From assembly GCF_028023675.1 (NCBI RefSeq), contig NZ_JAQIOZ010000018.1, positions 1-64,000 of the forward strand: a DNA stretch of 64,000 nucleotides, read 5' to 3'. Within the stretch, counting starts at the first letter, position 1, and every line of letters begins with the position of its first letter. The translations under genes were made by a program, and so were the position numbers. The notes below the pieces were generated by a model. It saw only the letters and a program-made list of their open reading frames with translations, had not been told where the DNA came from and ran no database searches. This document shows positions 6,859 through 23,474 of the stretch, one piece after another. The stretch comes from Primorskyibacter aestuariivivens. Its GTDB lineage: Bacteria > Pseudomonadota > Alphaproteobacteria > Rhodobacterales > Rhodobacteraceae.

Positions 6859-7404
6859 TCAACGAGTTCGGCAGGCTGGTGACGAGTGTCCCCTTCCTGT
6901 GAAGCGGTCGCAAATTTCCGCACCTGCAAATTGGTTCATGCAGGGTTGTATTATCCGTCCACAAAGCGGCTGACGGCCGCCCTTCTCTGCGCAGGCCACG
7001 AAAGGCGGCTCTGGGTCGGCTGCATCCATCAGGTAGAAGATTTTTTGCCATTCCAGAGGGAACGGCCCTAGCAACCGCGCCAGCGTCACCTCCGGCCCCT
7101 GGGTTCCGCCCATGATCGTCTCGACGATATCTGGCGCGAGCAGCGTCAGCCGCAGCACGCGGGTCATGTAGGACGGCGCGATCCCCTCGCGTTCGGCCAG
7201 TTCATTGATCGTCGTAAACTCCCCCGACTCCAGCATCCGCTTCCAGCGCAACGCGCGGGCCAGAGCTTTGACCAGCGTGTTATCGGTCCTGCGCGGAAGC
7301 GCGGCGCCGGCGGGCAGCTGCATCTCCTTCCGCCCGCCGCGCTTCACCATGCGGAACGGAACATGGAGCGTCACCGTCTCAGGATTTGGCGCGCTGCGAG
7401 TCAT
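6859..7404 (-). CDS. Recombinase-linked DNA-binding protein (helix-turn-helix), C-terminus possibly altered
   Basis: A 181-residue protein whose first 120 residues match a family I recall directly downstream of large serine recombinases in alphaproteobacterial elements: VTLHVPFRMVKRGGRKEMQ, then the helix-turn-helix TINELAEREGIAPSYMTRVLRLTLLAPDIV and GPEVTLARLL. Its ATG overlaps the recombinase stop as ATGA, so the two are co-transcribed. After PLEWQ the sequence turns Cys- and Arg-rich and no longer looks like the family, which suggests that the original 3' end was replaced. It probably assists or regulates the recombinase. Confidence 0.65.
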   Translation of the reverse strand: MTRSAPNPETVTLHVPFRMVKRGGRKEMQLPAGAALPRRTDNTLVKALARALRWKRMLESGEFTTINELAEREGIAPSYMTRVLRLTLLAPDIVETIMGGTQGPEVTLARLLGPFPLEWQKIFYLMDAADPEPPFVACAEKGGRQPLCGRIIQPCMNQFAGAEICDRFTGRGHSSPACRTR

Positions 7405-9066: not shown

Positions 9067-9702
9067 CTAAATCACAGTCTTCTCGTCACTTTCGAGCGAA
9101 ACCTGACCCGCGCAAATGCAAAGTATTTCGGCGTCTTCTTTGGACCCCGATACGTATGCGTGACCCATGGTGCTATCGAGGTAAGCATACTCTCCCACGT
9201 TCAATACAACGGTTGCATAGAATTCGCTGTGCAGCTCGACCGTGCCTCGCAAAACATAAATGAATTCCTCGCCATCATGACGGACGAGTTCACCGAACTC
9301 TGCGATAGATCCCGCCTTTATCCTGACCAACACAGGCAGCAGGCGCTTCGTCTTCAGACTGGAGCACAAGTAGCGGTGTTCGTAATTCTTTGTGTCCAAC
9401 AAGTCGTATTCATCGGGCCGGCCGACGACTTGCCATCCAGTCGGCCGTGGGCCTTCGTTGGATTCTGAGATGGTCTCGCCAAACATCGCGCTGACTGGAA
9501 TGGACAGCCCTGCCGCCAGCTTCAGAATGACGTCATAAGTCGGCGAAACACCCCCGTTTTCGACCTTTGATATGGTCGAAGCAGAAACCGAAGATCGCGT
9601 TGCCAGTTCTGTCAGAGTCAAATTGCGAGCTTTGCGCTTCGCTTTGAGACGTTGTCCGAAGGTCTCTTCCTCGGGGAGCGTTTCCCTTGCCGAAACATTC
9701 AT
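9067..9702 (-). CDS. XRE-family regulator with C-terminal cupin domain
   Basis: A 211-residue regulator. Residues 15-75 form the helix-turn-helix (GQRLKAKRKARNLTLTELATRSSVSASTISKVENG) and residues 130-205 a cupin sensor domain (GEEFIYVLRGTVELH, then YLDSTMGHAYVSG). The ATG at 9702 has AAGGAGA just upstream; an earlier opening has no such site. Such regulators commonly control amino-acid and polyamine catabolic genes, and the neighbours RidA and DadA fit. It reads in the same direction as ridA, dadA and the TRAP genes. Its stop lies three bases from the IS6 end, so the last residues may have been trimmed by the insertion. Confidence 0.9.
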   Translation of the reverse strand: MNVSARETLPEEETFGQRLKAKRKARNLTLTELATRSSVSASTISKVENGGVSPTYDVILKLAAGLSIPVSAMFGETISESNEGPRPTGWQVVGRPDEYDLLDTKNYEHRYLCSSLKTKRLLPVLVRIKAGSIAEFGELVRHDGEEFIYVLRGTVELHSEFYATVVLNVGEYAYLDSTMGHAYVSGSKEDAEILCICAGQVSLESDEKTVI

Positions 9703-9837
9703 GGTTTCTCCTTCAGGCATAGATGCTTGTCCGCGAGATATATGGTATTGTGCAGCGGTTGGGGGAACAAGCAGTTGAAAAACCGCTTTTTCTTGCACGG
9801 GCTTGCACGCCACCGGATGCCGGTAGGGTCGGGCCGA

Positions 9838-10230
9838 CTATTCCTTGGGCTTGAATACCGTAACCTCTATCTCCACTCTTGCGTCGGGTAACACCAACTC
9901 AGAGCAAACCGTCGAACGCGCCGGCGGGTACTCCGAAAAGAACTCTGCGTAGACCGTATTGAACGGGGCAAAGTCGCCGGTGTCGGTCAGCCAGACCGTC
10001 GCCCGTACCACATCTGTTAACTGAGCGTCGAGGTTCTGCAGGAACGCTTCGATCAACGTCAGGCACTGACGCGTTTGCGGAGCGATGCCGCCCGCAACGA
10101 TCTTGCCGTCTGAACCGAATGCAAGCTGGCCGGACAGAAAAATGAAATCACCTGCACGGACCGCCTTTGACAGCGGCACCGGAGTTCCATCTGCAAGAGT
10201 GACCACGCCTCCAAGTGTTTCGATTGTCAT
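9838..10230 (-). CDS. RidA-family enamine/imine deaminase
   Basis: A 130-residue protein of the RidA (YjgF/YER057c/UK114) family with GDFIFLSGQLAF, QTRQCLTLIEAFLQ, DVVRATVWLTD and the C-terminal ARVEIEVTVF. The Arg in VVRATVWL matches the residue that binds the substrate carboxylate in active members. RidA proteins hydrolyse 2-imino acids released by amino-acid oxidases and dehydrogenases to 2-oxo acids plus ammonium. Placed 33 bases after dadA in the same direction, it should clear the imine that DadA produces. Confidence 0.9.
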   Translation of the reverse strand: MTIETLGGVVTLADGTPVPLSKAVRAGDFIFLSGQLAFGSDGKIVAGGIAPQTRQCLTLIEAFLQNLDAQLTDVVRATVWLTDTGDFAPFNTVYAEFFSEYPPARSTVCSELVLPDARVEIEVTVFKPKE

Positions 10231-10263
10231 TTTGCGCCCCTACGATTGGCATTGTATTGGGTG

Positions 10264-11532
10264 TTAAAATCGGTCAGGTCTGTAGTCGGACACCGGGAGT
10301 GCGGGCAGTCGTCCTGCGATAAGGTCGCTGACAGCACGCGACGTGCCGCTGGCCGTGGTCCAGCCGAGATACCCGTGACCCGTGTTCAGAAAAAGGTTTC
10401 GAGGGCCTTGCTGACCGATGATCGGCAAGCAATCCGGCGTCATCGGCCTATGCCCGCACCACGTTGTCAGGGGCTCTGCCCCTTCGACAAGTTCACGTAC
10501 GCTCGGGTATGTTGCAAAGGCAGCGCGGCGCAGGTTTTCAATGCGCGCCGGATTGATTTCGGTTGAGTACCCACCGAATTCGGCTGAGCCGACAAAGCGT
10601 ATCCGATCCCCAAGAGGTGTCAGTCCGATATGCTGTGTATCGTCCACCACAGGGATTTTCGGTGCGCCGTTCCACTCTGTCACGTTATAGGTCACCGAAT
10701 ACCCTTTGACCGGTTTGATCGGCAGCCGAAGACCCAGCTTTTGACCAAGCGCGGCGCTCCAGAAACCTGCGGCAAGCACAACGGCGTCGGCGGCATGGCG
10801 TGTCTTGTCGGTGACCACGGCGCTGATCATGTCGCCAGAAAGCTCAATGTCGATGACCGTCTCGCCATAGCAAAGACCAGCCCCTTCGGCGCTCAGGTGA
10901 TCGGACAAAGAAGCGCAGAACTGGTGTGCATCGCCGTGCTGGTCATCTTTGTAGTAGAAGCCTCCGGCCAGCCTGTCTTTGATATCGGTCAGGGCAGGTT
11001 CCAACCGCACCAGATCGGCTGGCGAGCACGTCGTGACATCAACCCCGGCACTTCCGACGATCCCATTGGCGATCTCCGCATTCCTGAAACTTGCGGAATC
11101 GCGGTACATCATTATTGTGCCCAGTCCGCCCCGGTCCATCGGGGGATTGAGGGTTTCGCGGAGGGCATCGTACTGGTCCAGAGCATAGTGGCTCAGCCGT
11201 GCATTGCGTTGGATGGTTTGCCGAAACCGGGAAGGCGTGGAGTTTCGAACGAAACTCAGCCCCCACCGTATGTATTGCGGAATTGCCGATGTCTTGACGT
11301 AGATCGCCGATGACGGGTTGCCGATCGAGGACAGAAGCACCTTGAAGATTCCAGGTGAATTCCAGGGAGCGGAATGGCTGGGGGTGATCAGCCCGCCATT
11401 CGCAAAACTGGTTTCAAGCGCAGGCCCTTCGCGGCGCTCGACCACGGTGACATCCATGCCCTCCCGCTTCAGAAAAAAGGCGGTTTGAAGCCCCGCGAGT
11501 CCGGCCCCGATGACGACAACTTTCTTGGTCAT
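10264..11532 (-). CDS. dadA: DadA-like FAD-dependent D-amino-acid dehydrogenase
   Basis: A 422-residue flavoprotein of the DAO fold. The N-terminal VVVIGAGLAGLQTAFFL binds FAD, ETSFANGGLITPSHSAPWNSPG corresponds to the conserved DadA segment, and the C-terminus has TTWCGHRPMTPDCLPIIG and NTGHGYLGWTTASGTSRAVSDLI. Family members oxidise D-amino acids to imino acids and pass electrons to the respiratory chain at the inner membrane. It lies 12 bases after dctM (in transcription order) and before ridA, so uptake and oxidation are co-expressed. The specific D-amino acid is unknown; the adjoining branched-chain pathway points to D-isoleucine, D-allo-isoleucine or D-valine. Confidence 0.85.
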   Translation of the reverse strand: MTKKVVVIGAGLAGLQTAFFLKREGMDVTVVERREGPALETSFANGGLITPSHSAPWNSPGIFKVLLSSIGNPSSAIYVKTSAIPQYIRWGLSFVRNSTPSRFRQTIQRNARLSHYALDQYDALRETLNPPMDRGGLGTIMMYRDSASFRNAEIANGIVGSAGVDVTTCSPADLVRLEPALTDIKDRLAGGFYYKDDQHGDAHQFCASLSDHLSAEGAGLCYGETVIDIELSGDMISAVVTDKTRHAADAVVLAAGFWSAALGQKLGLRLPIKPVKGYSVTYNVTEWNGAPKIPVVDDTQHIGLTPLGDRIRFVGSAEFGGYSTEINPARIENLRRAAFATYPSVRELVEGAEPLTTWCGHRPMTPDCLPIIGQQGPRNLFLNTGHGYLGWTTASGTSRAVSDLIAGRLPALPVSDYRPDRF

Positions 11533-11544
11533 GTCAAATTTCCC

Positions 11545-12822
11545 CTAGTCGAGCAGCGAGGGCAGCCAAAGCGACAGCGAAGGAACAAAGGCCAGCAAGA
11601 GTATCGAGGCGATCACCGCGATGAAGAACGGAATAGCTGCAACGACGACGCGCTCCGTCGGCACTTCTGCGATTTTCGCAGCCGTCAGCAGCGTCATCCC
11701 GACCGGCGGCGTGATGTTTGACACGTTCAGCGTGACAATCATGATGATCGCGAAATGCAGACTGTCAAAGCCCAGCCCTACCATGGTGGGGTGCAGGATC
11801 GGACCGACCACGACCAGTGCGGGCAGCACGTCCATGACCGTGCCCAGCAGGATCAGAAACGCGATGACGAGGAGCAACTGTACGGTTTGGCTATCGGACA
11901 CCCCCGAGATTATATCGGCTGCATCCCGTGCGAGGCCCGAGCGAACGACAAACCATGACAGAACCGCAGAAGCCGCCAGCAAAAAGAACACGACGCCGGA
12001 AAAACGGATGGTCACAACCATCGCATCCCATACCTTCGCCCAACTCAGGCGGCGATACAGCAAGGTACCAACCAGCAGCGTGTAGACAGCGGCAAAGGCA
12101 GAGGCCTCGGTGACGGTGGTCAGGCCCGTGAGTATGCCGCCGAGAATAACGATGGGGACCATCAGCGCAGGCAGCGAGACGAGAAAGGCCATGAATGCAG
12201 CAAAAAGCGCGGTGGGCTCGTGCTGAGGGAAGCCCTTGCGCCATGCCAGAAATATGCTGACGGCGAGCATGGAGCCTGCCATCAGGATGCCGGGGATGAT
12301 GCCGGCGGCGAACAGGTCGATCACCGAAACGTCACGCAGGATAGTCGCATAGACGACCATGATGATGCTTGGCGGGATGATCGGCCCGATAATCGACGAA
12401 CAGGCCGTGACGGCCGCGCTGTACTCGGCCGAATAGCCTTCTTCCTTCATAGCGGGAATGAGAATGCGGCCGATGGATACCGTATCGGTCACAGCGGCCC
12501 CCGTCAGCCCGGCAAAGAATACGCTGACCGTGACGTTCACATGACTCAATGCCCCACGGATGCGCCCGAACAGCGCATTGTTGAAGGCAATCAGCCGCTC
12601 GGTCAGGCTGGCGTGGCTCATCAGCTCGGATGTGAAGATGAAGTAGGGCACGGCAATCAGCACGAAGGAAGAAACGCCCGAGAACATCTTGTCAGGCACG
12701 ATGATCAGGTAGTCCAACCCACCCAGTGACAGAGCGCCGGCGCCGCCTGCGAAGACCATCACAAGGCCGACCGGGGCCCCGATCAGCAGCATCACGACGA
12801 AGACCGAAACAACGATTGGCAT
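11545..12822 (-). CDS. dctM: TRAP transporter large permease subunit DctM
   Basis: A 425-residue, very hydrophobic protein with about a dozen membrane helices and the DctM signatures GAPVGLVMVFAGG, VSVFFAGLTGAAVTDTVSIG and SNITPPVGMTLLTAAKIAEV. It forms the sodium-coupled transport channel of a tripartite TRAP transporter. Its ATG overlaps the dctQ stop by one base (TGATG), the usual coupling. Length and helix pattern are normal. Substrate specificity comes from the binding protein at 13425. The genomic setting suggests an amino acid or 2-oxo acid. Confidence 0.93.
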   Translation of the reverse strand: MPIVVSVFVVMLLIGAPVGLVMVFAGGAGALSLGGLDYLIIVPDKMFSGVSSFVLIAVPYFIFTSELMSHASLTERLIAFNNALFGRIRGALSHVNVTVSVFFAGLTGAAVTDTVSIGRILIPAMKEEGYSAEYSAAVTACSSIIGPIIPPSIIMVVYATILRDVSVIDLFAAGIIPGILMAGSMLAVSIFLAWRKGFPQHEPTALFAAFMAFLVSLPALMVPIVILGGILTGLTTVTEASAFAAVYTLLVGTLLYRRLSWAKVWDAMVVTIRFSGVVFFLLAASAVLSWFVVRSGLARDAADIISGVSDSQTVQLLLVIAFLILLGTVMDVLPALVVVGPILHPTMVGLGFDSLHFAIIMIVTLNVSNITPPVGMTLLTAAKIAEVPTERVVVAAIPFFIAVIASILLLAFVPSLSLWLPSLLD

Positions 12823-13361
12823 CAGCGTAGCTCCACATTTTGAGCGGTTTCCTGGCGGCTGTCGGGAAAGCCCATCTCATGGGGGGACGTCTCCTCGATC
12901 AACGCGCGCCCGGCGGCGAGATGGACCAGCATGATCGCCCCCGCGACCGGCAGGCTTGCCGTAACCCAACGCTGCGAGAACTGGATCTGGTCACTGATCA
13001 TGACCAGTTGATCGGACTCGACGGTGTACTGTATTCCGTAGACCAGCAGGACAAGGCCCAGAACGCCAATTGCCGCAATCGTCGTCACTTGCAGAACGGT
13101 GCGAAGAAACGCCGGCATCGCATTGCTCACCAGCTTCATGGCGACATGCTCGCCACCGCGAAAGGCGACAGTGATCGAGAGCAGCGCGATCCAGGGGACA
13201 AACTGCCGGGCTAGCGAATAGGTCCAACTCAACGCGTCACCGACGATTACCTGATAAAGGGCTCCGGAAAAGGAAATGCATAGCATGGAAACCAGAATCG
13301 CGGCGCAAACAGCGGTGACGATCACGTTGAGACGCATGCTGAAATGTGCAAGCCAAGACAT
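12822..13361 (-). CDS. dctQ: TRAP transporter small permease subunit DctQ
   Basis: A 179-residue protein with four predicted membrane helices (LNVIVTAVCAAILVSMLCISF near the N-terminus, then WIALLSITVAFRGGEHVAMK with the DctQ motif around the second loop). The ATG at 13361 lies eight bases after GGAG; a TTG four codons earlier would place that site inside the gene, so it was rejected. DctQ anchors the binding protein to DctM. It sits between dctP and dctM as is normal. Confidence 0.9.
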   Translation of the reverse strand: MSWLAHFSMRLNVIVTAVCAAILVSMLCISFSGALYQVIVGDALSWTYSLARQFVPWIALLSITVAFRGGEHVAMKLVSNAMPAFLRTVLQVTTIAAIGVLGLVLLVYGIQYTVESDQLVMISDQIQFSQRWVTASLPVAGAIMLVHLAAGRALIEETSPHEMGFPDSRQETAQNVELR

Positions 13362-13424
13362 TTGGTGCTCCAATGCTCAAATACGCGCAGCCCGGGAGCG
13401 TGCCCGGGCTGTGCTCATCCCGGA

Positions 13425-14522
13425 TCAGTCTGCGTAGAGGCCGATGCTGGTTTCTTTCTCGGTGGCAGAGATGCGTGCCACTTCCGCCCAAAGCTCATCG
13501 ACCAGTGCCGGGTCCACTCCGAAATCGCCGGTGACCCACTCGCGCCATGCGGGGCGCGCAATCTCGGCCATCCTGTTCCGCTCGGAAGCCGGCAGGACAT
13601 AGCATTCGTCAAACAGCTTGCAGCTTTCCGTCCATCCGTTGATGGCCTGAAGTGCCGCGATGCCGTGGCCGATCTTCACCGCTTCGCGGGCCGCGATGGC
13701 AATCGCCTCCTGATACTCTTTTGGCAGCGATTGGAACCACTTTTCGCTGACCACGAAAGTCGTCGAGTTGTAGACGTGGCCGCTGAGCGTGGTGTAATCG
13801 GTAACTTCATAAAGCTTGTAGGCGGTCGAGATGCCCGGAGCGTTGAACTGACCATCTGCAAGGCCCGTGGACAGTGCGGTATGGACCTCGCCCCAAGGCA
13901 GCGGTGTGGCCGAGGCGCCGAGCGCCTTCATGATCGCGACATGTGCCGGGTTTTCCTCGACACGGATCTTGAGGCCTGCCAGGTCCTCAACGGTCTTCAC
14001 CAGCCGCTGGTTGGTTGTCAGGGCGACAAATCCGCCCCCGTCGTCGAACGTCCCCAGATAACGCAGCCCGCTTTCCTCGATTGCCCCTTTCATGAAATTC
14101 GCGTGCCAATCGCCATCGAAATAGGCACGGGCTGTGAGGTAATCATTGAACAGGAACGGCGAGGTGACGATCTGATAGTCGGAAAAGAACGAAGACATCG
14201 CCCCCGACGACATCACCGTCGCCTGCATGGTGCGTCCGGATTGGGTCTGCTTTCCGGATTCCACTTCGTTCCCCAACTGGCTGCCGGCAAAGATCTGCAC
14301 GTCGATCGCCCCGCCGGTGGCGCTTTCCACCAGGGCTTCGAAATGCAGCAGGCTGGGCTGCACTTCATTGCTCATCGGGTCTTCGGGGTAGAGGTGTCCG
14401 ATGATCATTTCATAGTCAGCTGCATGCGCCGTGCTTGCAAGCAATAGCGCAGCGGCCCCGGCCTGGGCTGTCTTGCGGGCAATCCGTAATGCTGTGAAGC
14501 CAGCGATAATATTTGTCGGCAT
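13425..14522 (-). CDS. dctP: TRAP transporter substrate-binding protein DctP
   Basis: A 365-residue periplasmic protein. A signal peptide runs to about residue 34 (hydrophobic core AGAAALLLASTAHA, then ADYEM). The mature protein shows the DctP fold: IIGHLYPEDPMSNEV, AGSQLGNEVESG, the dyad segment LAGLKIRVEENPAHVAIMKALGASATPLPWGEVHTALSTGLADGQFN (with the Arg in KIRVEEN that clamps the ligand carboxylate) and VVSEKWFQSLPKEYQ. Most relatives bind organic acids, and some bind amino acids or their derivatives. It is the first TRAP gene transcribed from the promoter region upstream of 14522. Confidence 0.93.
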   Translation of the reverse strand: MPTNIIAGFTALRIARKTAQAGAAALLLASTAHAADYEMIIGHLYPEDPMSNEVQPSLLHFEALVESATGGAIDVQIFAGSQLGNEVESGKQTQSGRTMQATVMSSGAMSSFFSDYQIVTSPFLFNDYLTARAYFDGDWHANFMKGAIEESGLRYLGTFDDGGGFVALTTNQRLVKTVEDLAGLKIRVEENPAHVAIMKALGASATPLPWGEVHTALSTGLADGQFNAPGISTAYKLYEVTDYTTLSGHVYNSTTFVVSEKWFQSLPKEYQEAIAIAAREAVKIGHGIAALQAINGWTESCKLFDECYVLPASERNRMAEIARPAWREWVTGDFGVDPALVDELWAEVARISATEKETSIGLYAD

Positions 14523-14753
14523 ATTGTGTTCCTCCCGGTCTATGTCGCTCGTCGCTCTGCGCGGTGAGTAGATCTGATGTTGTCGCCCTCGAATCCTTTC
14601 GGACCGGCGACATGAAAAACAGGATAGAGAAGGATTTTTCCTTTAGTCAATAATTTTCTTATGAGAAAAATAATGTGCGATAGTGAAAGCAGGTGCGGCA
14701 GCAGCCGGAGGCACGGTCAGGGGCACCAGATGGCCGGGTGTTGGCGCGGCACA
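14523..14753. promoter_or_regulatory. Promoter region of the TRAP-dadA operon with an AT-rich palindrome
   Basis: This 231-base gap between dctP and the Lrp-type gene has a strikingly AT-rich patch around 14630-14685. Within it, TTTTCT at 14654-14659 and AGAAAA at 14664-14669 form a perfect dyad with a four-base centre, and the flanking TAA/TTA bases extend it imperfectly. The local XRE-cupin and Lrp-type proteins are both candidates to bind it. No further start signals were assigned. Confidence 0.55.
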
Positions 14754-15215
14754 TCAGATCGGCAGGGCTGTCGTCTTTTTGACGACGTCTAGAATGACCG
14801 AACTTTCCATTTCCTGAACGCCGGGCAGCGAGACAAGCTTGTCCTGAACAAGCGCGTGATAGTGGTCAATGTCACGCACCACGATATGAAGGTGATAGTC
14901 GAAGCCCCCCAGGAGCAGCACTGCATACTGGATTTCCGGAATGGCGCGGATCGCGCGGCGGAAGGCTTCAAGCCCCGCCCGGTCATGTTTGTTCAGTTTG
15001 ACCCGCGCCACGACAAGCGCGTTAAAGCCAAGCCGTCTGCGATCCAGATCGACGGTCTTGCCCCTGATGATCCCCGCTTCCTGAAGCTGGATGATCCGTC
15101 TTGAGCAAGGCGATTGAGAAATGCCGACCTGCTCGGCGATTTCGGTTACGGTCTTGGAGCCATCGGCCTGCATCGCGCGAAGGATTCGCATGTCCGTTTC
15201 GTCTATTTTCAGCAT
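14754..15215 (-). CDS. bkdR: Lrp/AsnC-family regulator, BkdR-like
   Basis: A 153-residue regulator. It has an N-terminal helix-turn-helix (ILRAMQADGSKTVTEIAEQVGISQSPCSRRIIQLQEAGII) and a C-terminal RAM domain (VLLLGGFDYHLHIVVRDIDHYHALVQDKLVSLPGV) that binds amino acids and drives oligomer formation. It is divergent from the plus-strand operon holding the branched-chain dehydrogenase, exactly as bkdR, an Lrp homologue, stands to the bkd operon in Pseudomonas putida, where it activates in response to L-branched-chain amino acids. By analogy it likely controls one or both arms of the island. The gene name is by analogy only. Confidence 0.85.
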   Translation of the reverse strand: MLKIDETDMRILRAMQADGSKTVTEIAEQVGISQSPCSRRIIQLQEAGIIRGKTVDLDRRRLGFNALVVARVKLNKHDRAGLEAFRRAIRAIPEIQYAVLLLGGFDYHLHIVVRDIDHYHALVQDKLVSLPGVQEMESSVILDVVKKTTALPI

Positions 15216-15349
15216 GACTTAGCCTCATATTGAAGTATTAATGTCTGTATCATGCTTGAATTTGGAATTTTTGTCCATCCTTTGGGAAAACCAGCCGAAA
15301 GACTCATGCCATATTGCGCCCGAATTTGAGCTCGACTGGGAGAATGAAG
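15216..15349. promoter_or_regulatory. Divergent promoter region between the BkdR-like gene and the catabolic operon
   Basis: This is the only intergenic space upstream of the eight-gene plus-strand operon. It is AT-rich near 15230-15280, as expected for Lrp-type binding. GGGAGA at 15339-15344 supplies the ribosome binding site for the thiolase ATG at 15350. I see no unambiguous repeat long enough to call an operator. Confidence 0.45.
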
Positions 15350-16525
15350 ATGGCAGAGGTTGTGATCTGTAGCGCAAAGCGCACGCCGATGGGCGGGTTT
15401 CAGGGAGAGTTCGGCGGGATCGGAGCCACTGATCTGGGCGCGATCGCAATTCGCGCCGCAATTGCCGACGCAGGGATTGCAGGTGATGACGTTGACGAAA
15501 CCATCATGGGCATCGTGCTTTCGGCCGGCGTCGGTCAGGCCCCTGCACGTCAGGCCTGCCTCGGCGCTGGCCTGCCCTTGTCGACGCCGGCAACCGCAAT
15601 AAGCAAGGTCTGCGGCTCTGGCATGCAGGCGGTGATCCAGGGCTGTAACCAGATTTCCTCCGGGTTCAGCCGGTTCGTCGTGGCGGGCGGCATGGAGAGC
15701 ATGTCCAATGCCCCCTACCTCTCTCCAAACACCCGCTCGGGTGCTCGTCTTGGACATGTGAGGATGCTGGATCACATGTTTTTCGACGGGCTGGAGGACG
15801 CCTATGAAGGTGGCCTGATGGGCAGTTTTGCCGAAAACTGCGCCCGGAAATACGAATTCTCACGCGAGGCGCAAGATGCCTATGCGATCGCCTCGCTCAA
15901 CCGGGCTCTGGCCGCCACGGATGACGGGGTATTCACCGCCGAAATCGCGCCTGTGACGATCAAGACGCGCAGCGGCGAACAGACGATCCGAACTGACGAG
16001 CAGCCGCGCAATGCCCGCCCCGACAAGATCCCGCAGCTGAAGCCCGCATTCGCCAAGGATGGCACGGTTACGGCGGCGAACGCCTCTTCGATTTCGGATG
16101 GTGCCGCGGCCTTGTTTCTGGCATCGCGCGACGCTGCCGCGGCGAAAGCGCTGCCGGTGCGGGCGCGGATCGTAGGGTTTTCTGGCCATGCGCAGGAGCC
16201 GGGCTGGTTCACCACGGCCCCGGTCGCGGCTACACGAAAGCTGTTGGACCGGATCGGCTGGACCATTGCCGATGTTGATCTCTGGGAGGTCAACGAGGCC
16301 TTTGCTGTGGTGGCCATGGCGTTCATGCAGGATCTCGATATCGACCATGAGACGTTGAACGTAAACGGTGGCGCCTGTGCCTTGGGTCATCCCATCGGCG
16401 CTTCGGGCGCGCGCATCCTCGTCACGCTTCTGCATGCGCTGGAACAGCGCGATCTGAAACGCGGGGTCGCCGCAATCTGCATCGGGGGCGGCGAGGCCCT
16501 GGCGGTCGCCATCGAGAGGGAGTGA
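15350..16525 (+). CDS. Acetyl-CoA C-acyltransferase (thiolase)
   Basis: A 391-residue thiolase. It has the nucleophilic Cys88 in SKVCGSGMQAVIQG, the His in WEVNEAFAVVAMAF/NVNGGACALGHPIGASGARIL and the second Cys near the C-terminus in IAAICIGGGEALAVAIE. The start at 15350 was chosen for its GGGAGA spacing; an ATG six bases earlier is the alternative. Known thiolases of isoleucine breakdown cleave 2-methylacetoacetyl-CoA to acetyl-CoA and propionyl-CoA, and the HSD10-like neighbour supports this role. It leads the operon and is followed four bases later by the acyl-CoA dehydrogenase. Confidence 0.92.
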   Translation: MAEVVICSAKRTPMGGFQGEFGGIGATDLGAIAIRAAIADAGIAGDDVDETIMGIVLSAGVGQAPARQACLGAGLPLSTPATAISKVCGSGMQAVIQGCNQISSGFSRFVVAGGMESMSNAPYLSPNTRSGARLGHVRMLDHMFFDGLEDAYEGGLMGSFAENCARKYEFSREAQDAYAIASLNRALAATDDGVFTAEIAPVTIKTRSGEQTIRTDEQPRNARPDKIPQLKPAFAKDGTVTAANASSISDGAAALFLASRDAAAAKALPVRARIVGFSGHAQEPGWFTTAPVAATRKLLDRIGWTIADVDLWEVNEAFAVVAMAFMQDLDIDHETLNVNGGACALGHPIGASGARILVTLLHALEQRDLKRGVAAICIGGGEALAVAIERE

Positions 16526-16529
16526 TCAG

Positions 16530-17681
16530 ATGCAGGGTATCCTCACAGAAGAACAGGCAATGATCCGCGACATGGCCCGGCAGTTTGCGCGGGACAAGCT
16601 GACGCAAGGCGCGGCTGACCGGGAGGCGGCAGGACGCATCGAAACCGGTATCATCGAAGAGATGGGGCAACTGGGATTTCTGGGCATGACCGTGCCCGAG
16701 GAAATGGGAGGTGTCGGGGCCGACTATGTCTCTTATGCGCTGGCGTTGATGGAAATTGCGGCCGGCGATGGCGCAGTCTCGACCATGATGTCGGTCCACA
16801 ATGCGCCATTCTGCGCGATCCTGCAGATGTTTGCCAACAAGACGCAGCAGGATGCTTGGCTGAACCCGGCGGCCAAAGGCGCATTCATCGGCTGCTTTGC
16901 CTTGACCGAGCCCGGAACCGGCACCGATGCCGCCGCGATCAGGACGCGGGCTGTGCGCACAAACGATGGCTATGTTCTGAACGGTTCAAAACAGTTCATC
17001 ACCTCGGCCCGGATCGGTGGCGCAACGATTGCCTTTGCCGTGACCGATCCGGCGGCGGGGAAAAAGGGGATTTCGGCGTTTTACCTCGAACAGGGCAGCC
17101 CGGGATTTTTCGTGGCCGAACCGGAACGGAAGCTGGGCCAGAAAGCCTCTGATACCTGCGCCCTGACCTTTGAAGATCTCAAGGTGGATGCCGGCGCGTT
17201 GATCGGAAGCGAGGGGCAGGGGCTTCAGATCGCGTTGTCGTCGCTGGAAGCGGGTCGCATCGGCATTGCCTCGCAATCGGTGGGCATGGCGCAGGCCGCG
17301 CTTGACTATGCCATGGTCTATGCGCTGGAGCGTCAGGCGTTCGGCAAGCCGATCTTCGAGCATCAGGCGGTTGCCTTCCGGCTTGCGGAAATGGATGCAC
17401 AGATCGAAGCCGCGCGGCAGCTGGTCCTGTATGCCGCACGGCTCAAGGATCTGGGCCAGCCCTGCCTGCGCGAAGCCTCCATTGCCAAGCTGACGGCCAG
17501 CCAGATGGCGGAACGGGTCGTGTCGGACGCGATCCAGACCCTGGGCGGATATGGCTATCTTTCGGAATTCCCGTTGGAACGGATCTATCGCGACGCGCGC
17601 GTCTGCCAGATCTACGAAGGCACCTCGGATGTCCAGCGGATCAACATTTCCCGTGACCTGAAAAGGAGATACCAGCAATGA
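16530..17681 (+). CDS. Acyl-CoA dehydrogenase, short/branched-chain type
   Basis: A 383-residue flavoenzyme. FALTEPGTGTDAAAI and QFITSARIGG bind FAD, and IYEGTSDVQRINISRDL near the C-terminus carries the catalytic Glu363, the position used by short-chain and 2-methyl-branched-chain enzymes (isovaleryl-type enzymes use another site). It would convert 2-methylbutanoyl-CoA or isobutyryl-CoA to the 2,3-enoyl-CoA, passing electrons to electron-transfer flavoprotein. It sits between thiolase and the short-chain dehydrogenase, which it overlaps by four bases. Exact chain preference is inferred. Confidence 0.92.
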   Translation: MQGILTEEQAMIRDMARQFARDKLTQGAADREAAGRIETGIIEEMGQLGFLGMTVPEEMGGVGADYVSYALALMEIAAGDGAVSTMMSVHNAPFCAILQMFANKTQQDAWLNPAAKGAFIGCFALTEPGTGTDAAAIRTRAVRTNDGYVLNGSKQFITSARIGGATIAFAVTDPAAGKKGISAFYLEQGSPGFFVAEPERKLGQKASDTCALTFEDLKVDAGALIGSEGQGLQIALSSLEAGRIGIASQSVGMAQAALDYAMVYALERQAFGKPIFEHQAVAFRLAEMDAQIEAARQLVLYAARLKDLGQPCLREASIAKLTASQMAERVVSDAIQTLGGYGYLSEFPLERIYRDARVCQIYEGTSDVQRINISRDLKRRYQQ

Positions 17682-18445
17682 GGATCGGTGCAGACACCCC
17701 CGCCGTCGTCACCGGTGGCGCTTCCGGTCTTGGGGCCGCCGTGACAAGAGCCCTGCGCGCGCAGGGTGTTCCCGTAGGCATTCTGGACATGAATGCGGAC
17801 GCCGGACAGCAGTTTGCCGAAGAGACCGGTGCGACATTCGCGCAATGCGATATTTCCGATGCCGGCGACGTGAGCACCGCGCTGGACAGGCTGCGCGCCC
17901 GTCAGGGTCAGGAAAGGATCTGCATCAACTGTGCAGGTATCGCGCCAGCGGCCAAGACCGTATCCCGCGGCGTCGCCCATGACCCCGCCCTTTATGCGAA
18001 GGTTGTTGGTGTCAATCTCATCGGAACGTTCAACGTTGCAACCCAATCCGCGCTTGGTATGTCCGGGACCGAACCGCAGAACGACGATGGTGAGCGCGGG
18101 GTCATCATCAACACAGCATCGATTGCCGCCTTTGAAGGCCAGATGGGCCAGCTGGCCTATGCCTCGTCAAAGGCAGGGGTCGTCGGCTTGACCCTGCCAA
18201 TGGCCCGCGATCTGGCCAAGACCGGCATCCGCGTCGTCGCCATTGCCCCCGGTATCTTCGCGACCCCGATGGTCACCGCCTTTCCGCAAGAGGTGCAGGA
18301 TGCGCTCGCCCGGACCTCGGAGTTTCCGCAGCGCCTCGGACGGGTCGAAGAGTTCGCCGAACTGGCGCTGCATATCGTCCGCAATACCATGCTGAATGGC
18401 GAGGTCATCCGCTTAGATGCAGCAACAAGGATGCAGTCAAAATGA
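17678..18445 (+). CDS. Short-chain dehydrogenase resembling HSD10 (3-hydroxy-2-methylbutyryl-CoA dehydrogenase)
   Basis: A 255-residue short-chain dehydrogenase. TGGASGLG at residues 12-19 binds NAD, and the catalytic Ser148, Tyr161 and Lys165 lie in [21 protein letters not shown]. The following [29 protein letters not shown] and the C-terminal [14 protein letters not shown] strongly recall the HSD17B10/HSD10 group, which oxidises 2-methyl-3-hydroxybutyryl-CoA in isoleucine breakdown. ATGA overlaps join it to the genes on both sides. This gene is the best pointer to isoleucine rather than valine or leucine as the pathway. Confidence 0.88.
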
Positions 18446-19677
18446 CCAGGCAGACAAAGCTCAACTTTCCTCACCCTCCCGCGCGCCCGGATGAAACTCC
18501 TGATTTCTCGGCCATTGATATCCCGGAGGCGGGCATACTGGATGTGCCGCCGCCCGAACTAAAGGCCGCCGACAGTCACGACTACGCCCAGGGCTTGATC
18601 CGTATTCTCAACGATCAGGGTGACGCCGTTGGCCCTTGGGCCGATTACATCGCCGACCGGGAAGACGAGTCCTTGCTGCAAGGGCTGCGCGACATGCTCA
18701 AGATGCGGGCGGTGGACAAACGTCTGCTGAATGCGCAACGCCAGGGCAAGACCTCGTTCTATCTGCAATGCACCGGCGAGGAAGCCATCGGCGGCGGGTT
18801 TCAGCGCCAGCTTGAGCAGGGCGACATGAATTTCCCGACCTATCGGCAGCAGTCCCTTCTGATCGCGGCGGACTATCCGCTGCGGGATCTGATGGGGCAG
18901 ATCTACTCGAACGCATGCGATCCGCTGCAGGGCCGGCAACTGCCCATCATGCATTCGGCGCGGGAGCATGGCTTTTTCTCGATCTCGGGCAACCTTGGCA
19001 CACAGTATGTGCAGGCCGTCGGCTGGGCCATGGGGTGCGCGCTGCGTGGCAATGGCAAGATCGCGGCGGGCTGGATCGGCGACGGCGCCACAGCATCGAA
19101 TGATTTCAATTCGGCGCTGTTGTCGGCCTCGGTGTATCAGCCGCCTGTCGTCCTGAATATCGTCAACAACCAATGGGCCATTTCCACTTATACCGGCGTC
19201 GCCAGCGGCCAGAGCAAGACCTATGCCGAGCGGGTGCTTGGATATGGCATTCCCGCCTTGCGGGTGGACGGCAATGATTATCTTGCCGTAGTCGCGGTCA
19301 GTCGTTGGGCGATCCAGCGCGCGCGCAACGGATATGGTCCGATTGCGATCGAGTGGTTCACCTATCGCGCCGCGCCGCATTCGACCTCGGATGACCCCTC
19401 GGCCTATCGCCCCAAGGATGAGGCGCTGGCCTGGCCGTTGGGCGATCCGGTCGAACGCTTGAAAACCCACATGATCAAGCGTGGCATCTGGACCGAAGAG
19501 CGCCACGCGCAGTCCGAGGCGGAATTGCTGGCCGAGGTCATGGCGGTGCAAAAAGAGGTCGAGAAACACGGGACCTTCGTGAACCCGCAACCGATCTCGC
19601 CGGCAGAAATTTTCCGCGGCGTCTACGCAGACATGCCCGAGCATCTGCGCCGACAGCGACAGGAGATGGGGTACTGA
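18442..19677 (+). CDS. bkdA1: Branched-chain 2-oxoacid dehydrogenase E1 alpha subunit
   Basis: A 411-residue thiamine-diphosphate enzyme subunit, about the length of Pseudomonas BkdA1. An N-terminal arm of about 60 residues precedes the core. GDGATASNDFNSALLSASVYQPPVV...NNQWAIST is the thiamine diphosphate motif (GDG...NN), and EWFTYRAAPHSTSDDPSAYRP contains the conserved phosphorylation-loop-like segment seen in E1 alpha. With E1 beta it decarboxylates branched-chain 2-oxo acids and acylates the E2 lipoyl group. It overlaps the HSD10-like gene (ATGA) and is one base from bkdA2. Confidence 0.95.
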   Translation: MTRQTKLNFPHPPARPDETPDFSAIDIPEAGILDVPPPELKAADSHDYAQGLIRILNDQGDAVGPWADYIADREDESLLQGLRDMLKMRAVDKRLLNAQRQGKTSFYLQCTGEEAIGGGFQRQLEQGDMNFPTYRQQSLLIAADYPLRDLMGQIYSNACDPLQGRQLPIMHSAREHGFFSISGNLGTQYVQAVGWAMGCALRGNGKIAAGWIGDGATASNDFNSALLSASVYQPPVVLNIVNNQWAISTYTGVASGQSKTYAERVLGYGIPALRVDGNDYLAVVAVSRWAIQRARNGYGPIAIEWFTYRAAPHSTSDDPSAYRPKDEALAWPLGDPVERLKTHMIKRGIWTEERHAQSEAELLAEVMAVQKEVEKHGTFVNPQPISPAEIFRGVYADMPEHLRRQRQEMGY

Positions 19678-19678
19678 C

Positions 19679-20692
19679 ATGGCCCGTATGAGCATGATCG
19701 AGGCGCTGCGCAGCGCCATGGATGAGAAGCTGAGCGACGATGCATCGGTGCTCGTCTTCGGCGAGGATGTCGGCTTTTTCGGCGGGGTGTTCCGTTGCAC
19801 CGCCGGGCTTCAGGAGAAGTTCGGCGAAGAGCGGGTGTTCGACACGCCGATCAACGAAAGCGCGATTGTCGGGTTGGCCGTGGGCATGGCCGCGCAGGGA
19901 ATGCGCCCCTGTGTCGAGGTGCAGTTCGCCGATTATGTCTATCCCGCCTATGACCAGATCACCCAGGAGGCGGCGCGCCTGCGGCACCGTTCGAACGAAC
20001 AATTCACCTGTCCGATCGTGGTGCGGATGCCGACGGGCGGCGGCATTTTTGGTGGCCAGACCCACAGTCAGAGCCCCGAAGCACTGTTCACGCATGTGGC
20101 CGGGCTCAAAGTCGTTATCCCTTCGACTCCCTATGATGCCAAGGGATTGCTGATCGCGTCCATCGAGGATCCTGATCCGGTGATCTTTCTTGAACCCAAG
20201 CGGATCTACAACGGCCCGTTCTACGGCGACCATTCCGGCAAGTCCGTGCCCTGGTCACAGCACGAGTCAAGCGAAGTCCCCGAAGGGCATTACACTGTCC
20301 CCCTTGGCAAGGCCGTGGTGCGTCAGCCCGGCAATGACATCACGATCCTGGCATATGGCACGATGGTCTATGTTGCCGAGGCCGCCGCCAAGCAAGCCGG
20401 TGTCGATGCCGAGATCATCGACCTGCGGACGCTTCTGCCGCTCGACCTCGAGACGATCCGCCACTCGGTCGAAAAGACCGGGCGTTGCGTAGTGGTGCAT
20501 GAAGCGACACGCACAAGCGGCTTTGGTGCCGAACTGATCGCGGAGGTCCAGGAAGCCTGTTTCTGGCACCTCAAGGCACCCATCCGGCGTGTCGCCGGAT
20601 GGGATGCGCCTTATCCGCACGCCCAGGAATGGGATTACTTCCCGGGTCCGGAGCGCATTGCCGCGGCACTGAAATTGGCCATGGAGGAGTGA
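19679..20692 (+). CDS. bkdA2: Branched-chain 2-oxoacid dehydrogenase E1 beta subunit
   Basis: A 337-residue transketolase-like subunit. It shows SVLVFGEDVGFFGGVF, FDTPINESAIVGLAVGMA (Glu for thiamine diphosphate activation), VEVQFADYVYPAYDQI, RMPTGGGIFGG and a C-terminal domain with IIDLRTLLPLD and GFGAELIAEVQE. Length and order match bkdA2 of Pseudomonas. It pairs with the upstream alpha subunit into an alpha2-beta2 E1. E2 starts immediately downstream, with GGAGG in the last codons of this gene as its ribosome binding site. Confidence 0.95.
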   Translation: MARMSMIEALRSAMDEKLSDDASVLVFGEDVGFFGGVFRCTAGLQEKFGEERVFDTPINESAIVGLAVGMAAQGMRPCVEVQFADYVYPAYDQITQEAARLRHRSNEQFTCPIVVRMPTGGGIFGGQTHSQSPEALFTHVAGLKVVIPSTPYDAKGLLIASIEDPDPVIFLEPKRIYNGPFYGDHSGKSVPWSQHESSEVPEGHYTVPLGKAVVRQPGNDITILAYGTMVYVAEAAAKQAGVDAEIIDLRTLLPLDLETIRHSVEKTGRCVVVHEATRTSGFGAELIAEVQEACFWHLKAPIRRVAGWDAPYPHAQEWDYFPGPERIAAALKLAMEE

Positions 20693-20694
20693 TC

Positions 20695-21978
20695 ATGGGT
20701 ATCAGCATCATCAAGGTCCCGGATATTGGCGAAGGCGTCGCCGAGGTCGAACTGGTCGAATGGCACGTAAAAGTGGGTGACCTGGTCAAGGAAGATGACG
20801 TGCTCGCCGCGGTCATGACCGACAAGGCTACGGTGGAAATCCCGTCGCTTTTCGACGGCAGGGTTGTCGAGCTGGGCGCAGATATCGGAGAGACACTTGT
20901 AGTCGGCGCAACTCTGTTGACGATCGAGCACGCGGACGAAGGAAACGCGACCGCACCGGATACCGACGCGGCAGCAGCGTCGCCTGTCGCGCAGAAAGAG
21001 CCCGAGGAAAAGCTCCCCGAGCCTGCTCCGAGAGCGCCGGAACCGAAACTGCCCCCCGCCGCGCCGCCTGTTGCAGGCAGCGTGCGGGCCCCTCGCGCCG
21101 AAGGGGCCGCGCCACTGGCCTCTCCTGCGGTGCGGGCGCGGGCGCGGGCCGCAGGCATCGACCTCCGGCGGGTGGCCGGAAGCGGTCCGGCAGGGCGGAT
21201 CACGGACACCGATCTTGATGCGGTTTTCGCCGCCGGACCTGCTGCGGTTGCCGTGCCCAAGCCCGGCCGGTCGCGGCGCGAAGGCGCGGAAGACATCCGG
21301 GTCGTCGGCCTTCGCCGCAAGATTTCGGAAAGCATGTCGCTTGCCAATGCGCGTATCCCGCATATCACCGTGATAGAAGAAATCGACGTGACCGCGGTCG
21401 AAGACCTGCGCGCATCGATGAATGCCGGAAAGGGCGAAAAGCCGAAGCTGACCATGCTGCCATTCGTCAGCGCCGCCCTGTGTCGCGCGATCGACCAGCA
21501 TCCCGAGATGAACGCGCATTACTTTGACGACGCGGGCATCATCCGGCGGCATAACCCGGTTCATATCGGTGTTGCCACGATGACCGACAAAGGTCTTGTG
21601 GTTCCGGTCATGCGTCATGCGGAATCGCTTGGGCCCTTCCAATTGGCCGCCGAAATCCTGCGTCTGGCCGAGGCCGCGCGCAAGGGCAAGGCAACCCGTG
21701 ACGAACTGACCGGCTCGACCATCACGATCACCTCTTTGGGTCCGCTTGGCGCGATTGCGACGACGCCGATCATCAACCATCCCGAAGTGGCCATACTGGG
21801 CATCAACAAGATGGCGGTCCGGCCCATGTGGGATGGCGCACAATTCGTTCCGCGCAAGATGGTGAACATTTCGGCCAGCTTCGATCACCGGGTGATCGAC
21901 GGCTGGGATGCCGCGGAATTCGTGCAACGTATCAAAACCCTGCTGGAAAACCCGGCGCTGATCTTTATGGAGGATTGA
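20695..21978 (+). CDS. bkdB: Branched-chain 2-oxoacid dehydrogenase E2 (dihydrolipoyl acyltransferase)
   Basis: A 427-residue E2. A lipoyl domain occupies residues 1-80 with the lipoylated Lys44 in VMTDKATVEIPS. A Pro/Ala/Glu-rich linker follows, then the E1/E3-binding domain (SPAVRARARAAGIDLRRVAGSGPAGRITDTDL), another Ala/Pro linker, and the C-terminal acyltransferase with SASFDHRVIDGWDAAEFV, whose His is catalytic. It transfers the acyl group to CoA and forms the core of the complex. The ATG at 20695 follows the GGAGG of bkdA2; an upstream opening was rejected because it lies inside E1 beta. Confidence 0.95.
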   Translation: MGISIIKVPDIGEGVAEVELVEWHVKVGDLVKEDDVLAAVMTDKATVEIPSLFDGRVVELGADIGETLVVGATLLTIEHADEGNATAPDTDAAAASPVAQKEPEEKLPEPAPRAPEPKLPPAAPPVAGSVRAPRAEGAAPLASPAVRARARAAGIDLRRVAGSGPAGRITDTDLDAVFAAGPAAVAVPKPGRSRREGAEDIRVVGLRRKISESMSLANARIPHITVIEEIDVTAVEDLRASMNAGKGEKPKLTMLPFVSAALCRAIDQHPEMNAHYFDDAGIIRRHNPVHIGVATMTDKGLVVPVMRHAESLGPFQLAAEILRLAEAARKGKATRDELTGSTITITSLGPLGAIATTPIINHPEVAILGINKMAVRPMWDGAQFVPRKMVNISASFDHRVIDGWDAAEFVQRIKTLLENPALIFMED

Positions 21979-21981
21979 GCC

Positions 21982-23361
21982 GTGAAAACCGAAACCTGCA
22001 AGCTTCTGATCATCGGTGCGGGCCCGGGCGGCTATGTCTGTGGCATTCGCGCCGGGCAACTGGGAATCGACACGATCGTCGTCGAAGCGGAAAAACCGGG
22101 CGGCACCTGCCTGAATGTCGGATGCATTCCGTCCAAGGCGCTCATCCATGCAGCCGATGAGTTTGCCAAGCTGCACAGCCTTTCCGGCGAGAACGCCCTG
22201 GGCATTTCCGCAACTGCGCCAATGATTGATCTGGCCAAAACGATCGCCTGGAAAGACGGTATCGTCACACGCCTGACCGGCGGTGTTGCGAGCCTGCTCA
22301 AGAAGGCCAAAACCCGCTATGTGACTGGACGGGCGCAGATAATCAACGGCAAAACCGTGGAGGTTTCAACCAGCGAGGGCGCCTTGCGCATTTCCTGCGA
22401 AACCATGGTGATCGCCACGGGATCAAAACCGCAGGAGCTTCCGTCGCTGCCGTTCGGCGGGAAGGTCATCTCCTCCACTGAAGCGCTGGACCTGCAGGAG
22501 GTTCCCAACCGGCTGACCATCGTGGGGGGTGGGTATATCGGGTTGGAAATCGGCACGGCCATGGCGAAGCTGGGCGCGCAGGTGACTGTCGTGGAATTCG
22601 CAGACCGTATCTTGCCGCAATATGACGCCGAGCTGACCAGGCCGGTCGCGGCTCGTCTGAAGGAGCTTGGGATAACGCTGCATTTGGCGACTAGGGCGAA
22701 CGGGTTGTCCGAAGATGGAAGCGCTCTTCTGGCCGAGGGGCCGGATGGCGCCGTGGAAATCCCGTCGGACAAGGTGCTGGTCACGGTGGGTCGTGCGCCC
22801 GTCACGCAGGGATTTGGTCTGATGGATCTAGGCCTGACGATGGATGGTCCGTTCGTGGCGATTGATGCCCACTGTGCCACCTCGATGCGCGGTGTCTATG
22901 CCATTGGCGACGTTACCGGTGATCCGATGCTCGCGCATCGTGCCATGGCACAGGGCGTGATTGTGGCCGAGCACATTGCCGGGCTGCCTTCGATCTGGGA
23001 CAAGCGCGCCATTCCTGCGGTATGCTTTACCGATCCCGAGATTGTCACCGTGGGCGCGTTGCCGAACGAAATCGAGGGATCGAAAACAACGGTTTTTCCC
23101 TTTGCCGCAAATGGACGTTCGATGACGATGGAGCGCAGCGACGGTTTCGTGCGGATCGTATTCGACCCCAAAAACGAACTGGTGCTTGGCTTCCATGCCG
23201 TTGGTTCAGCGGTCTCGGAAATGTCCGGCGAGTTTGCATTGGCGCTCGAGATGGGCGCAACCCTGACGGACATCGCAGACACGATACATGCGCACCCGAC
23301 ATTGACGGAAACAGTCCAGGAAACTGCTCAGAAGGCCCTGGGTCGTGCTTTGCATATATAA
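21982..23361 (+). CDS. lpdV: Dihydrolipoyl dehydrogenase (E3)
   Basis: A 459-residue flavoprotein. GAGPGGYVCGIRAGQLG binds FAD, GGTCLNVGCIPSKAL carries the redox disulfide Cys43/Cys48, VGGGYIGLEIG binds NAD, YAIGDVTGDPMLAHRAMAQG is the second FAD segment and HAHPTLTETVQE holds the catalytic His-Glu pair. It reoxidises the E2 lipoyl groups. The length equals LPD-Val of Pseudomonas putida, supporting a dedicated E3 for this complex rather than a housekeeping copy. It ends the operon; about 110 gene-free bases follow before the right IS6 element. Confidence 0.95.
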   Translation: MKTETCKLLIIGAGPGGYVCGIRAGQLGIDTIVVEAEKPGGTCLNVGCIPSKALIHAADEFAKLHSLSGENALGISATAPMIDLAKTIAWKDGIVTRLTGGVASLLKKAKTRYVTGRAQIINGKTVEVSTSEGALRISCETMVIATGSKPQELPSLPFGGKVISSTEALDLQEVPNRLTIVGGGYIGLEIGTAMAKLGAQVTVVEFADRILPQYDAELTRPVAARLKELGITLHLATRANGLSEDGSALLAEGPDGAVEIPSDKVLVTVGRAPVTQGFGLMDLGLTMDGPFVAIDAHCATSMRGVYAIGDVTGDPMLAHRAMAQGVIVAEHIAGLPSIWDKRAIPAVCFTDPEIVTVGALPNEIEGSKTTVFPFAANGRSMTMERSDGFVRIVFDPKNELVLGFHAVGSAVSEMSGEFALALEMGATLTDIADTIHAHPTLTETVQETAQKALGRALHI

Positions 23362-23474
23362 TCAAGAAGGCTGAACCGGATCGATCATGTCTGAAAACAC
23401 GGCAGTCACGGCACTCTGTGGCGCCTTTCGAAGGCCGGCGGGAGCGCGAACTGGCCATGTGTAGGCTGAAACGG

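Follow-up and report, generated by a model that had tools for sequence, protein, structure and literature searches.

The 64-kb stretch of Primorskyibacter aestuariivivens DNA considered here (contig NZ_JAQIOZ010000018.1, positions 1 to 64,000; hereafter the window) carries at 9067–23361 a block of two divergent gene arms, one of which looks built for the import and oxidative deamination of D-amino acids and the other for the oxidation of branched-chain 2-oxoacids. All of the named genes are in frame, as judged from open reading frames (ORFs) and profile searches. The minus arm, read from the middle of the block outwards, begins with a complete TRAP (tripartite ATP-independent periplasmic) transporter set on the minus strand: the substrate-binding protein DctP (13425–14522; NF037995, 179.5 bits against a cut-off of 50; PF03480), the small permease DctQ (12822–13373; PF04290, with an alternative ATG at 13361) and the large permease DctM (11545–12822; TIGR00786, 359 bits, above cut-off; PF06808). 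There follow, on the same strand, a DadA-like flavin adenine dinucleotide (FAD) D-amino acid dehydrogenase of a rare subfamily (10264–11532), a Rid-family protein (9838–10230; PF01042) and an XRE-cupin transcriptional regulator (9067–9813; Pfam HTH_3 and Cupin_2) with the architecture of DbuR, the regulator of the Pseudomonas putida dbu system discussed at the end. The true start of the regulator is probably later than annotated, as the corresponding ORF of Shimia aestuarii is 217 amino acids long.

The plus arm, on the plus strand throughout, comprises a thiolase (15344–16525; TIGR01930, 423 bits, above cut-off; a longer ORF runs from 15314), an acyl-coenzyme A (acyl-CoA) dehydrogenase (ACAD; 16530–17681), an HSD10-like short-chain dehydrogenase/reductase (SDR; 17678–18445) matching 3-hydroxyacyl-CoA dehydrogenases, and the E1 alpha (E1a; 18442–19677), E1 beta (E1b; 19679–20692, by profile matches), E2 acyltransferase (20695–21978, with lipoyl, E3-binding and catalytic domains) and E3 dihydrolipoyl dehydrogenase (21982–23361; TIGR01350, 477 bits, above cut-off) components of a branched-chain 2-oxoacid dehydrogenase (BCKDH). 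The SDR and E1a genes each overlap the preceding gene by four bases, and a purine-rich stretch, seen by eye, precedes most gene starts; for E2 the start at 20695 is more likely than that at 20599, which would overlap E1b. Between the arms sits an Lrp/AsnC-family regulator (14754–15215, minus strand; PF01037, PF13404), adjacent to and divergent from the dehydrogenase operon in a BkdR-like position, and the same position is occupied at the loci L023, L033 and L080. The gene content that the initial annotation had given for both arms is borne out by these data; the Lrp/AsnC regulator, two flanking IS6-family transposases and the lack of a hydratase gene described below were absent from it.

The assignment of the dehydrogenase is clear in its E1a. 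The 2-oxoisovalerate dehydrogenases 2bp7 and 1qs0 (which we take to be Pseudomonas proteins) are by a wide margin its best structural matches (499 and 496 bits), pyruvate dehydrogenase E1a reaching at most 156 bits, and the protein carries the PF12573 N-terminal domain. By these sequence matches, the E1a-E1b-E2-E3 run is a true BCKDH-type operon. Type-II (HSD10-type) 3-hydroxyacyl-CoA dehydrogenases are among the best matches of the SDR, at up to 228 bits, and the nearest structures to the thiolase are thiolase and acetyl-CoA acetyltransferase. The block had initially been credited with a near-complete route to acetyl-CoA and propionyl-CoA; the ACAD, HSD10-like enzyme and thiolase of such a route are present, but no enoyl-CoA hydratase is among the block genes; the genome has 13 ECH_1 matches outside the block. 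In P. aestuariivivens and in S. aestuarii alike, the E1a of the block was the sole copy found, other matches being 28% identical. One such distant match in S. aestuarii (G198:C11:256713-257663) has one TGA within the aligned part and is either a broken gene or a sequence error.

The minus-arm flavoenzyme is a DAO-fold protein (PF01266) that shares 34% identity with Escherichia coli DadA. A residue alignment of the Rid protein shows the catalytic Arg and Glu retained and Leu in place of Tyr17. In the portion of their paper available, Niehaus et al. (PMC4433059) name the Arg and Glu for imine hydrolysis and give the Tyr as variable in Rid2; the Leu of the block protein would fit that subfamily. 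Upstream of dctP, a palindrome (14648–14675) touches a −35-like TTGACT (14650–14645, minus strand) and is a candidate operator for the XRE-cupin protein. The operator-like motif TTTYC-N6-GAAA occurred in five of nine XRE-cupin-module promoter regions and in none of four Lrp-thiolase gaps, and these promoter hits made up 12 of its 23 strand hits in the 466 kb of DNA searched, a figure in which the Shimia region is counted twice. In the window, TTTTC-N6-GAAA is found in one place (two counts, over both strands, against 0.42 expected), and two or more counts arose in 6 of 100 shuffles.

The order of the block is more than chance, since the same block is present in Shimia aestuarii at 96% DNA identity over 9068–23438. 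A scan of GTDB genome contigs for this DadA, which used short exact patterns and so gives a lower bound, found at least three loci, in S. aestuarii (98% identity), Maritimibacter alkaliphilus (64%) and Paracoccus xiamenensis (61%). Among 394 genomes of the family, this kind of DadA was confined to P. aestuariivivens itself, whose protein scored 889 bits against 338–349 for the three other matches past the threshold; none of three congeners passed it, and the best other score among 289 genomes of the class was 362 bits. Plasmid DadA neighbourhoods in Sinorhizobium and Rhizobium showed no transporter-Rid-dehydrogenase set. On a plasmid of Azospirillum ramasamyi (L037 1-10123), a branched-chain-type ATP-binding cassette (ABC) transporter, RidA, a DadA-like enzyme, an Asp/Glu racemase family gene and an indolepyruvate ferredoxin oxidoreductase occur together, perhaps as a further module for D-amino acids that brings along a 2-oxoacid-oxidizing enzyme.

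In Maritimibacter the two modules are joined in a different order. There the Lrp gene and the run from thiolase to E3 are followed by a convergent XRE-cupin gene and then by DadA, Rid and a different TRAP system (38% identity for DctM and 27% for DctP), whereas in the window and in Shimia the D arm, as we call the minus arm and its counterparts, is on the other side, adjoining Lrp. The regulator, too, is placed differently, being on the same strand as the operon and downstream of rid in the window and divergent from dadA in Maritimibacter. Among the loci read, thiolase, ACAD and SDR genes ahead of E1a-E3 were seen in the window, Shimia, Maritimibacter, Marinovum and the genome G178. Trees of bkd proteins from two alignments pair Maritimibacter with G178, at support values of 52 and 96, and no D arm was present in the 20 kb read of G178; the pairing therefore implies either two joinings or a loss of the D arm. 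In a control on 289 genomes of the class, in which at most six candidates were scored per genome so that weaker copies could be missed, a BCKDH E1a was found at 1e-90 in 27 genomes, a DadA-like protein at 1e-50 in 90 and both in 12. Only in P. aestuariivivens were the two near each other (8 kb); in three of the other 11 they were on the same contig at 161–477 kb, and in eight on different contigs. It is a fair statement that these are two separate modules combined in more than one way, rather than one ancient unit.

The closest structures to DctP are 4p47, 4n8g and 4ngu, of which we take the last two to be D-Ala-D-Ala complexes. In almost all TRAP binding proteins of one published set, as far as its available text describes, two Arg and one Asn hold the ligand carboxylate, these being Arg152, Arg173 and Asn213 in 4P47 (PMC11668362). 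An alignment by eye places Val166, Arg187 and Asn227 of the window DctP at these positions, such that the first Arg is replaced; by the same kind of alignment that position is Leu in 4n8g and Ile in 4ngu. Twelve DctP relatives from the family are evenly split there between Phe (6/12) and Arg (6/12). As for the remaining DadA modules, the position is taken by Ser in the Maritimibacter TRAP and by Ala in that of Paracoccus, by an alignment of only 24% identity. For a ligand whose carboxylate has a neighbouring amino group, a site one Arg short would be a good match. On a plasmid of Phaeobacter gallaeciensis (L105 3989-12164), a relative of the window DctP, 34% identical, is found beside genes for an M81 peptidase, a pyridoxal phosphate enzyme annotated as D-TA family (presumably of the D-threonine-aldolase type), a sugar kinase and a RidA-family protein. 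The mere presence of a TRAP system beside bkd genes is not remarkable, because TRAP genes are frequent near BCKDH loci of the family (DctM- or DctP-like matches in 5 of 12 stretches).

The explanation we favour, and consider reasonably though not strongly probable, is that the block is a horizontally moving module for D-aliphatic amino acids, dbu-like but with a TRAP importer, which feeds an isoleucine-type BCKDH operon. Two catabolic modules would have been fused via horizontal transfer. The TRAP system would import an aliphatic D-amino acid, most likely a D-branched-chain one (D-Val, D-Leu, D-allo-Ile/D-Ile), the DadA-like flavoenzyme would convert it to the imine with the respiratory chain as the presumed acceptor of the electrons, and Rid would accelerate imine hydrolysis, which yields the 2-oxoacid and ammonia; the XRE-cupin protein would keep this operon repressed from the palindrome before dctP. 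With flux in the predicted direction, the plus arm, controlled separately by the Lrp-type protein, would take branched-chain 2-oxoacids to acyl-CoA. An isoleucine skeleton would then pass through the ACAD, the HSD10-like enzyme and the thiolase, with the enoyl-CoA hydratase step supplied from another part of the genome, and end as acetyl-CoA and propionyl-CoA. The plus arm would also take L-branched-chain amino acids after transamination, and is probably the general branched-chain amino acid oxidation operon of the cell, because it occurs elsewhere without the D arm and holds the only BCKDH found in the genome.

Which D-amino acid would best suit such a pathway depends on stereochemistry. D-isoleucine (2R,3R) gives a 3R 2-oxoacid and then (R)-2-methylbutyryl-CoA, from which there is no route to tiglyl-CoA, whereas D-allo-isoleucine (2R,3S) and L-isoleucine converge on a single 3S 2-oxoacid. 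The isoleucine-type set of thiolase, ACAD and HSD10-like enzyme therefore fits D-allo-isoleucine better than D-isoleucine, and D-valine and D-leucine would require further enzymes outside the block. The designation 'D-isoleucine type' in the initial annotation accordingly goes beyond the data, and 'D-branched-chain' is the most that should be retained of it.

Several observations weigh against the favoured explanation. The DadA-like protein falls under the curated DadA cut-off (NF001933, 363.4 versus 383 bits), and outside the block the genome codes for another DadA-like protein, less closely related (C14, 228 bits), and for three more Rid proteins, which makes four Rid genes in all. Assignment of the block Rid protein to Rid2 is at most tentative, since it is 32.5% identical to E. 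coli RidA, 29.4% to YjgH (Rid7) and 27.4% to YoaB (Rid2). AlphaFold models of DctP and DadA, predicted from four-row alignments, reached pLDDT values of 30.5 and 39.2 and give no pocket evidence. The operator motif was chosen after the window had been seen and was not found in the Maritimibacter promoter region; being defined post hoc, it is support and not proof. The ACAD scored 331–335 bits against short-chain structures, 289 against the short/branched-chain structure 2jif and 212 against the isobutyryl type; as the short-chain structures score higher, it does not indicate a branched substrate, and this lowers our confidence.

The distribution of the arms also counts in part against a single unit. 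DadA was present at none of the 12 other BCKDH loci of the family that were read (of 13; G119, a partial match, was left out), within the 14–20 kb fetched. Plasmid pMaD5 of Marinovum algicola and G178 have Lrp and the full plus arm without a D arm in the stretch read. In Paracoccus xiamenensis, by comparison, DadA, Rid and XRE-cupin genes adjoin asparaginase-like and Asp/Glu-racemase-family genes, and no BCKDH was found in the genome (best match 28%), so the substrate of this DadA need not be branched-chain. Conservation of the two arms together therefore extends to Shimia and, rearranged, to Maritimibacter, but not to Marinovum and G178, with only the plus arm, or to P. xiamenensis, with only the D arm. 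The initial proposal that the arms form one D-amino acid pathway survives in so far as import and oxidative deamination into BCKDH is the best reading of arms that are linked in two arrangements; it is weakened by the dehydrogenase arm, which Marinovum and G178 carry with no D arm in the stretch read and which is the only BCKDH found in the P. aestuariivivens genome.

The block is bordered by IS6-family elements. On the left, a transposase gene (8306–9010, plus strand; NF033587, 199 bits, cut-off 125) belongs to an element whose apparent right end, at about 9062 by eye, lies a few bases before the start of the homology to Shimia. Directly before this element, a 274-amino-acid ORF with a PF07508 recombinase domain (7401–8225, minus strand) is perhaps a broken large serine recombinase. 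On the right, after the end of the Shimia homology (23438), comes an element at 23475–24289 (plus strand) with a transposase at 23532–24236 (NF033587, 203 bits) and inverted repeats matching at 10 of 12 positions. Here the window is cut by the IS6 element and passes into apparent core chromosome, with glucokinase, LacI, sugar ABC, ketoacyl-synthase, YceG, gyrase A and tmRNA genes; two inverted copies of a roughly 117-bp repeat (36011–36126 and 40920–41033), which share 84% identity, flank the gyrase A gene. In Shimia the right junction is without an IS6 gene, and on the left a diverged IS6-like remnant (59 amino acids, 40%) lies about 0.2 kb beyond the block. The Shimia block is followed by a second module (L051 10365-15072 and L055 498-4801) of XRE-cupin, FAD oxidoreductase, TRAP, M81 peptidase, amidohydrolase and CobW-like GTPase genes, in which the XRE-cupin gene is divergent from the FAD oxidoreductase and the amidohydrolase is of the PRK09061 type. 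This second cassette recurs among Roseobacter (L096, L097 and L099), where an Octadecabacter arcticus plasmid and plasmids from two Sulfitobacter carry it, and beyond it in Shimia lies a full IS6-family transposase (L055 5497-6216, 218 bits). IS6-family elements thus border the region in both genomes, and they may have helped in moving the block.

That the two arms share an address need not mean that they share a substrate. The D arm might handle another D-amino acid or a broad range of them (D-Ala, D-Met, acidic ones) as a nitrogen source, its adjacency to BCKDH being a by-product of island assembly. This is what the Paracoccus set, with its asparaginase-like and Asp/Glu-racemase-family neighbours, would suggest, and the solitary bkd arms of Marinovum and G178 agree with it. 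We nevertheless consider it rather unlikely, as the arms are joined in two distinct arrangements with different TRAPs, as none of the 11 other class genomes with both genes has them less than 160 kb apart on one contig, and as the dbu system, in the part of its description available, sets a precedent for branched-chain D-amino acids. The two arms might also be unconnected, the plus arm being a plain L-isoleucine or L-branched-chain operon and the minus arm a separately imported neighbour. Their different regulators (XRE-cupin and Lrp), an operator-like motif that stands before dctP but not in the Lrp-thiolase gap, and the autonomy of the bkd arm in other genomes all speak for this, yet Maritimibacter has both modules together in another order and, by established chemistry, the products of one module would be the substrates of the other, so that we hold a lack of any pathway connection to be unlikely.

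What the block imports and how it moved can be questioned in the same way. The TRAP system could bring in a small compound containing a D-amino acid, such as a D-peptide or an N-acyl or gamma-glutamyl derivative, that is cleaved elsewhere before DadA acts. In Shimia the block runs into the cassette with its own TRAP, M81 peptidase and amidohydrolase, known also from the Octadecabacter and Sulfitobacter plasmids, and a gamma-glutamyltransferase-family gene follows the D arm of Maritimibacter; the neighbouring DctP structures 4n8g and 4ngu, taken above to be D-Ala-D-Ala complexes, share with the window protein the missing first Arg; but the block's own genes include no peptidase or deacylase, and the window has IS6 where Shimia has the second cassette, which makes this source of substrate very improbable. 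As to movement, two IS6-family genes in direct orientation at both edges of the homology block would suit a composite transposon carrying the whole 14 kb as a unit, and the IS6 pieces around the Shimia block (the remnant on its left and the full transposase on its right) suggest that IS6 may have carried pieces of the region. However, at 78% DNA identity the two window copies fall short of the near-identity of a classic composite transposon, the right junction in Shimia is free of IS6 while the left has just the diverged remnant nearby, and no target duplication was seen by eye; transposition of the intact block as a composite is in our view quite unlikely.

A bolder form of this reading can be offered only tentatively, as something that may well prove wrong: the island might be a mobile, self-contained D-branched-chain catabolic unit of marine Rhodobacterales, assembled at least twice from dbu-like and isoleucine-type BCKDH modules, with a DctP of a D-amino acid or D-peptide TRAP kind, recognizable because the usual first Arg for the carboxylate has given way to Val, as it has to Ser and Ala in the other DadA modules. 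D-valine supports growth of some marine Alphaproteobacteria (Nautella A04V), and in the available text of that study genome comparison did not reveal the genes responsible (PMC4836201). Our search of the open-licence literature in PMC found no TRAP system for D-amino acids and no paper joining a TRAP transporter, a D-amino acid dehydrogenase and RidA; by title and abstract, work on D-isoleucine and D-amino acid dehydrogenase concerned an engineered enzyme only, and titles on D-isoleucine catabolism in marine Rhodobacter included nothing relevant. The block supplies a concrete, rare gene set and an importer candidate for D-amino acid use in marine Alphaproteobacteria and, if its TRAP protein binds D-branched-chain amino acids, a sequence signature for D-amino acid users in ocean genomes.

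Among known systems, import of D-branched-chain amino acids, the function we propose for the TRAP system of the block, has been described for LfAAP of Lactobacillus fermentum, in the available text a non-stereospecific importer of the APC family that is paired with an epimerase (PMC11907396), whereas the window importer is a TRAP system paired with oxidation. Like DadA of the E. coli DadA/DadX pair, the window flavoenzyme belongs to the DadA family of FAD D-amino acid dehydrogenases; unlike it, besides its low identity and sub-cut-off score, it has its own transporter and Rid and no alanine racemase in the block. For the plus arm the counterpart is the P. putida bkd operon, bkdR-bkdA1A2B-lpdV, with its Lrp-type regulator. 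The block resembles it in the divergent Lrp/AsnC gene beside E1a-E1b-E2-E3 and in the closeness of its E1a to 2bp7 and 1qs0, and departs from it in the thiolase, ACAD and HSD10-like SDR placed ahead in the same gene run. A cluster on a plasmid of Leisingera sp. S132 (L035 6522-16566) likewise has a TRAP system, a 2-oxoacid-making enzyme and a BCKDH operon in a row, but with an annotated D-lactate dehydrogenase (dld) in place of DadA and Rid and with a different DctP; it is possibly an importer and oxidizer of branched-chain 2-hydroxyacids, parallel to the block described here.

The nearest relative of the minus arm in overall plan is the dbu system of P. putida KT2440 (PP_2245-PP_2248), reportedly first described by Fulton and Downs in 2024. 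In dbuR-dbuABC, according to the available text, an XRE-cupin repressor, a flavoenzyme for D-branched-chain amino acids, a Rid2 protein and a transporter share one locus; D-leucine, D-isoleucine and D-valine act as inducers, the resulting 2-oxoacids are convertible to acyl-CoAs, and footprinting placed DbuR on an AT-rich palindrome at the promoter (PMC12724383). The minus arm matches this plan in its regulator, FAD enzyme, Rid-family protein, transporter and promoter palindrome, although its DadA-like enzyme is likened to DbuA by description and not by sequence, and its regulator gene closes the operon at the 3′ end, transcribed in the same direction, whereas dbuR is divergent. The initial suggestion that the combination was undescribed therefore does not hold for the general scheme. 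As far as that source describes the system, what differs is the importer, a TRAP system where DbuC is an annotated ABC transporter, and the presence of an adjoining BCKDH/isoleucine-type operon.

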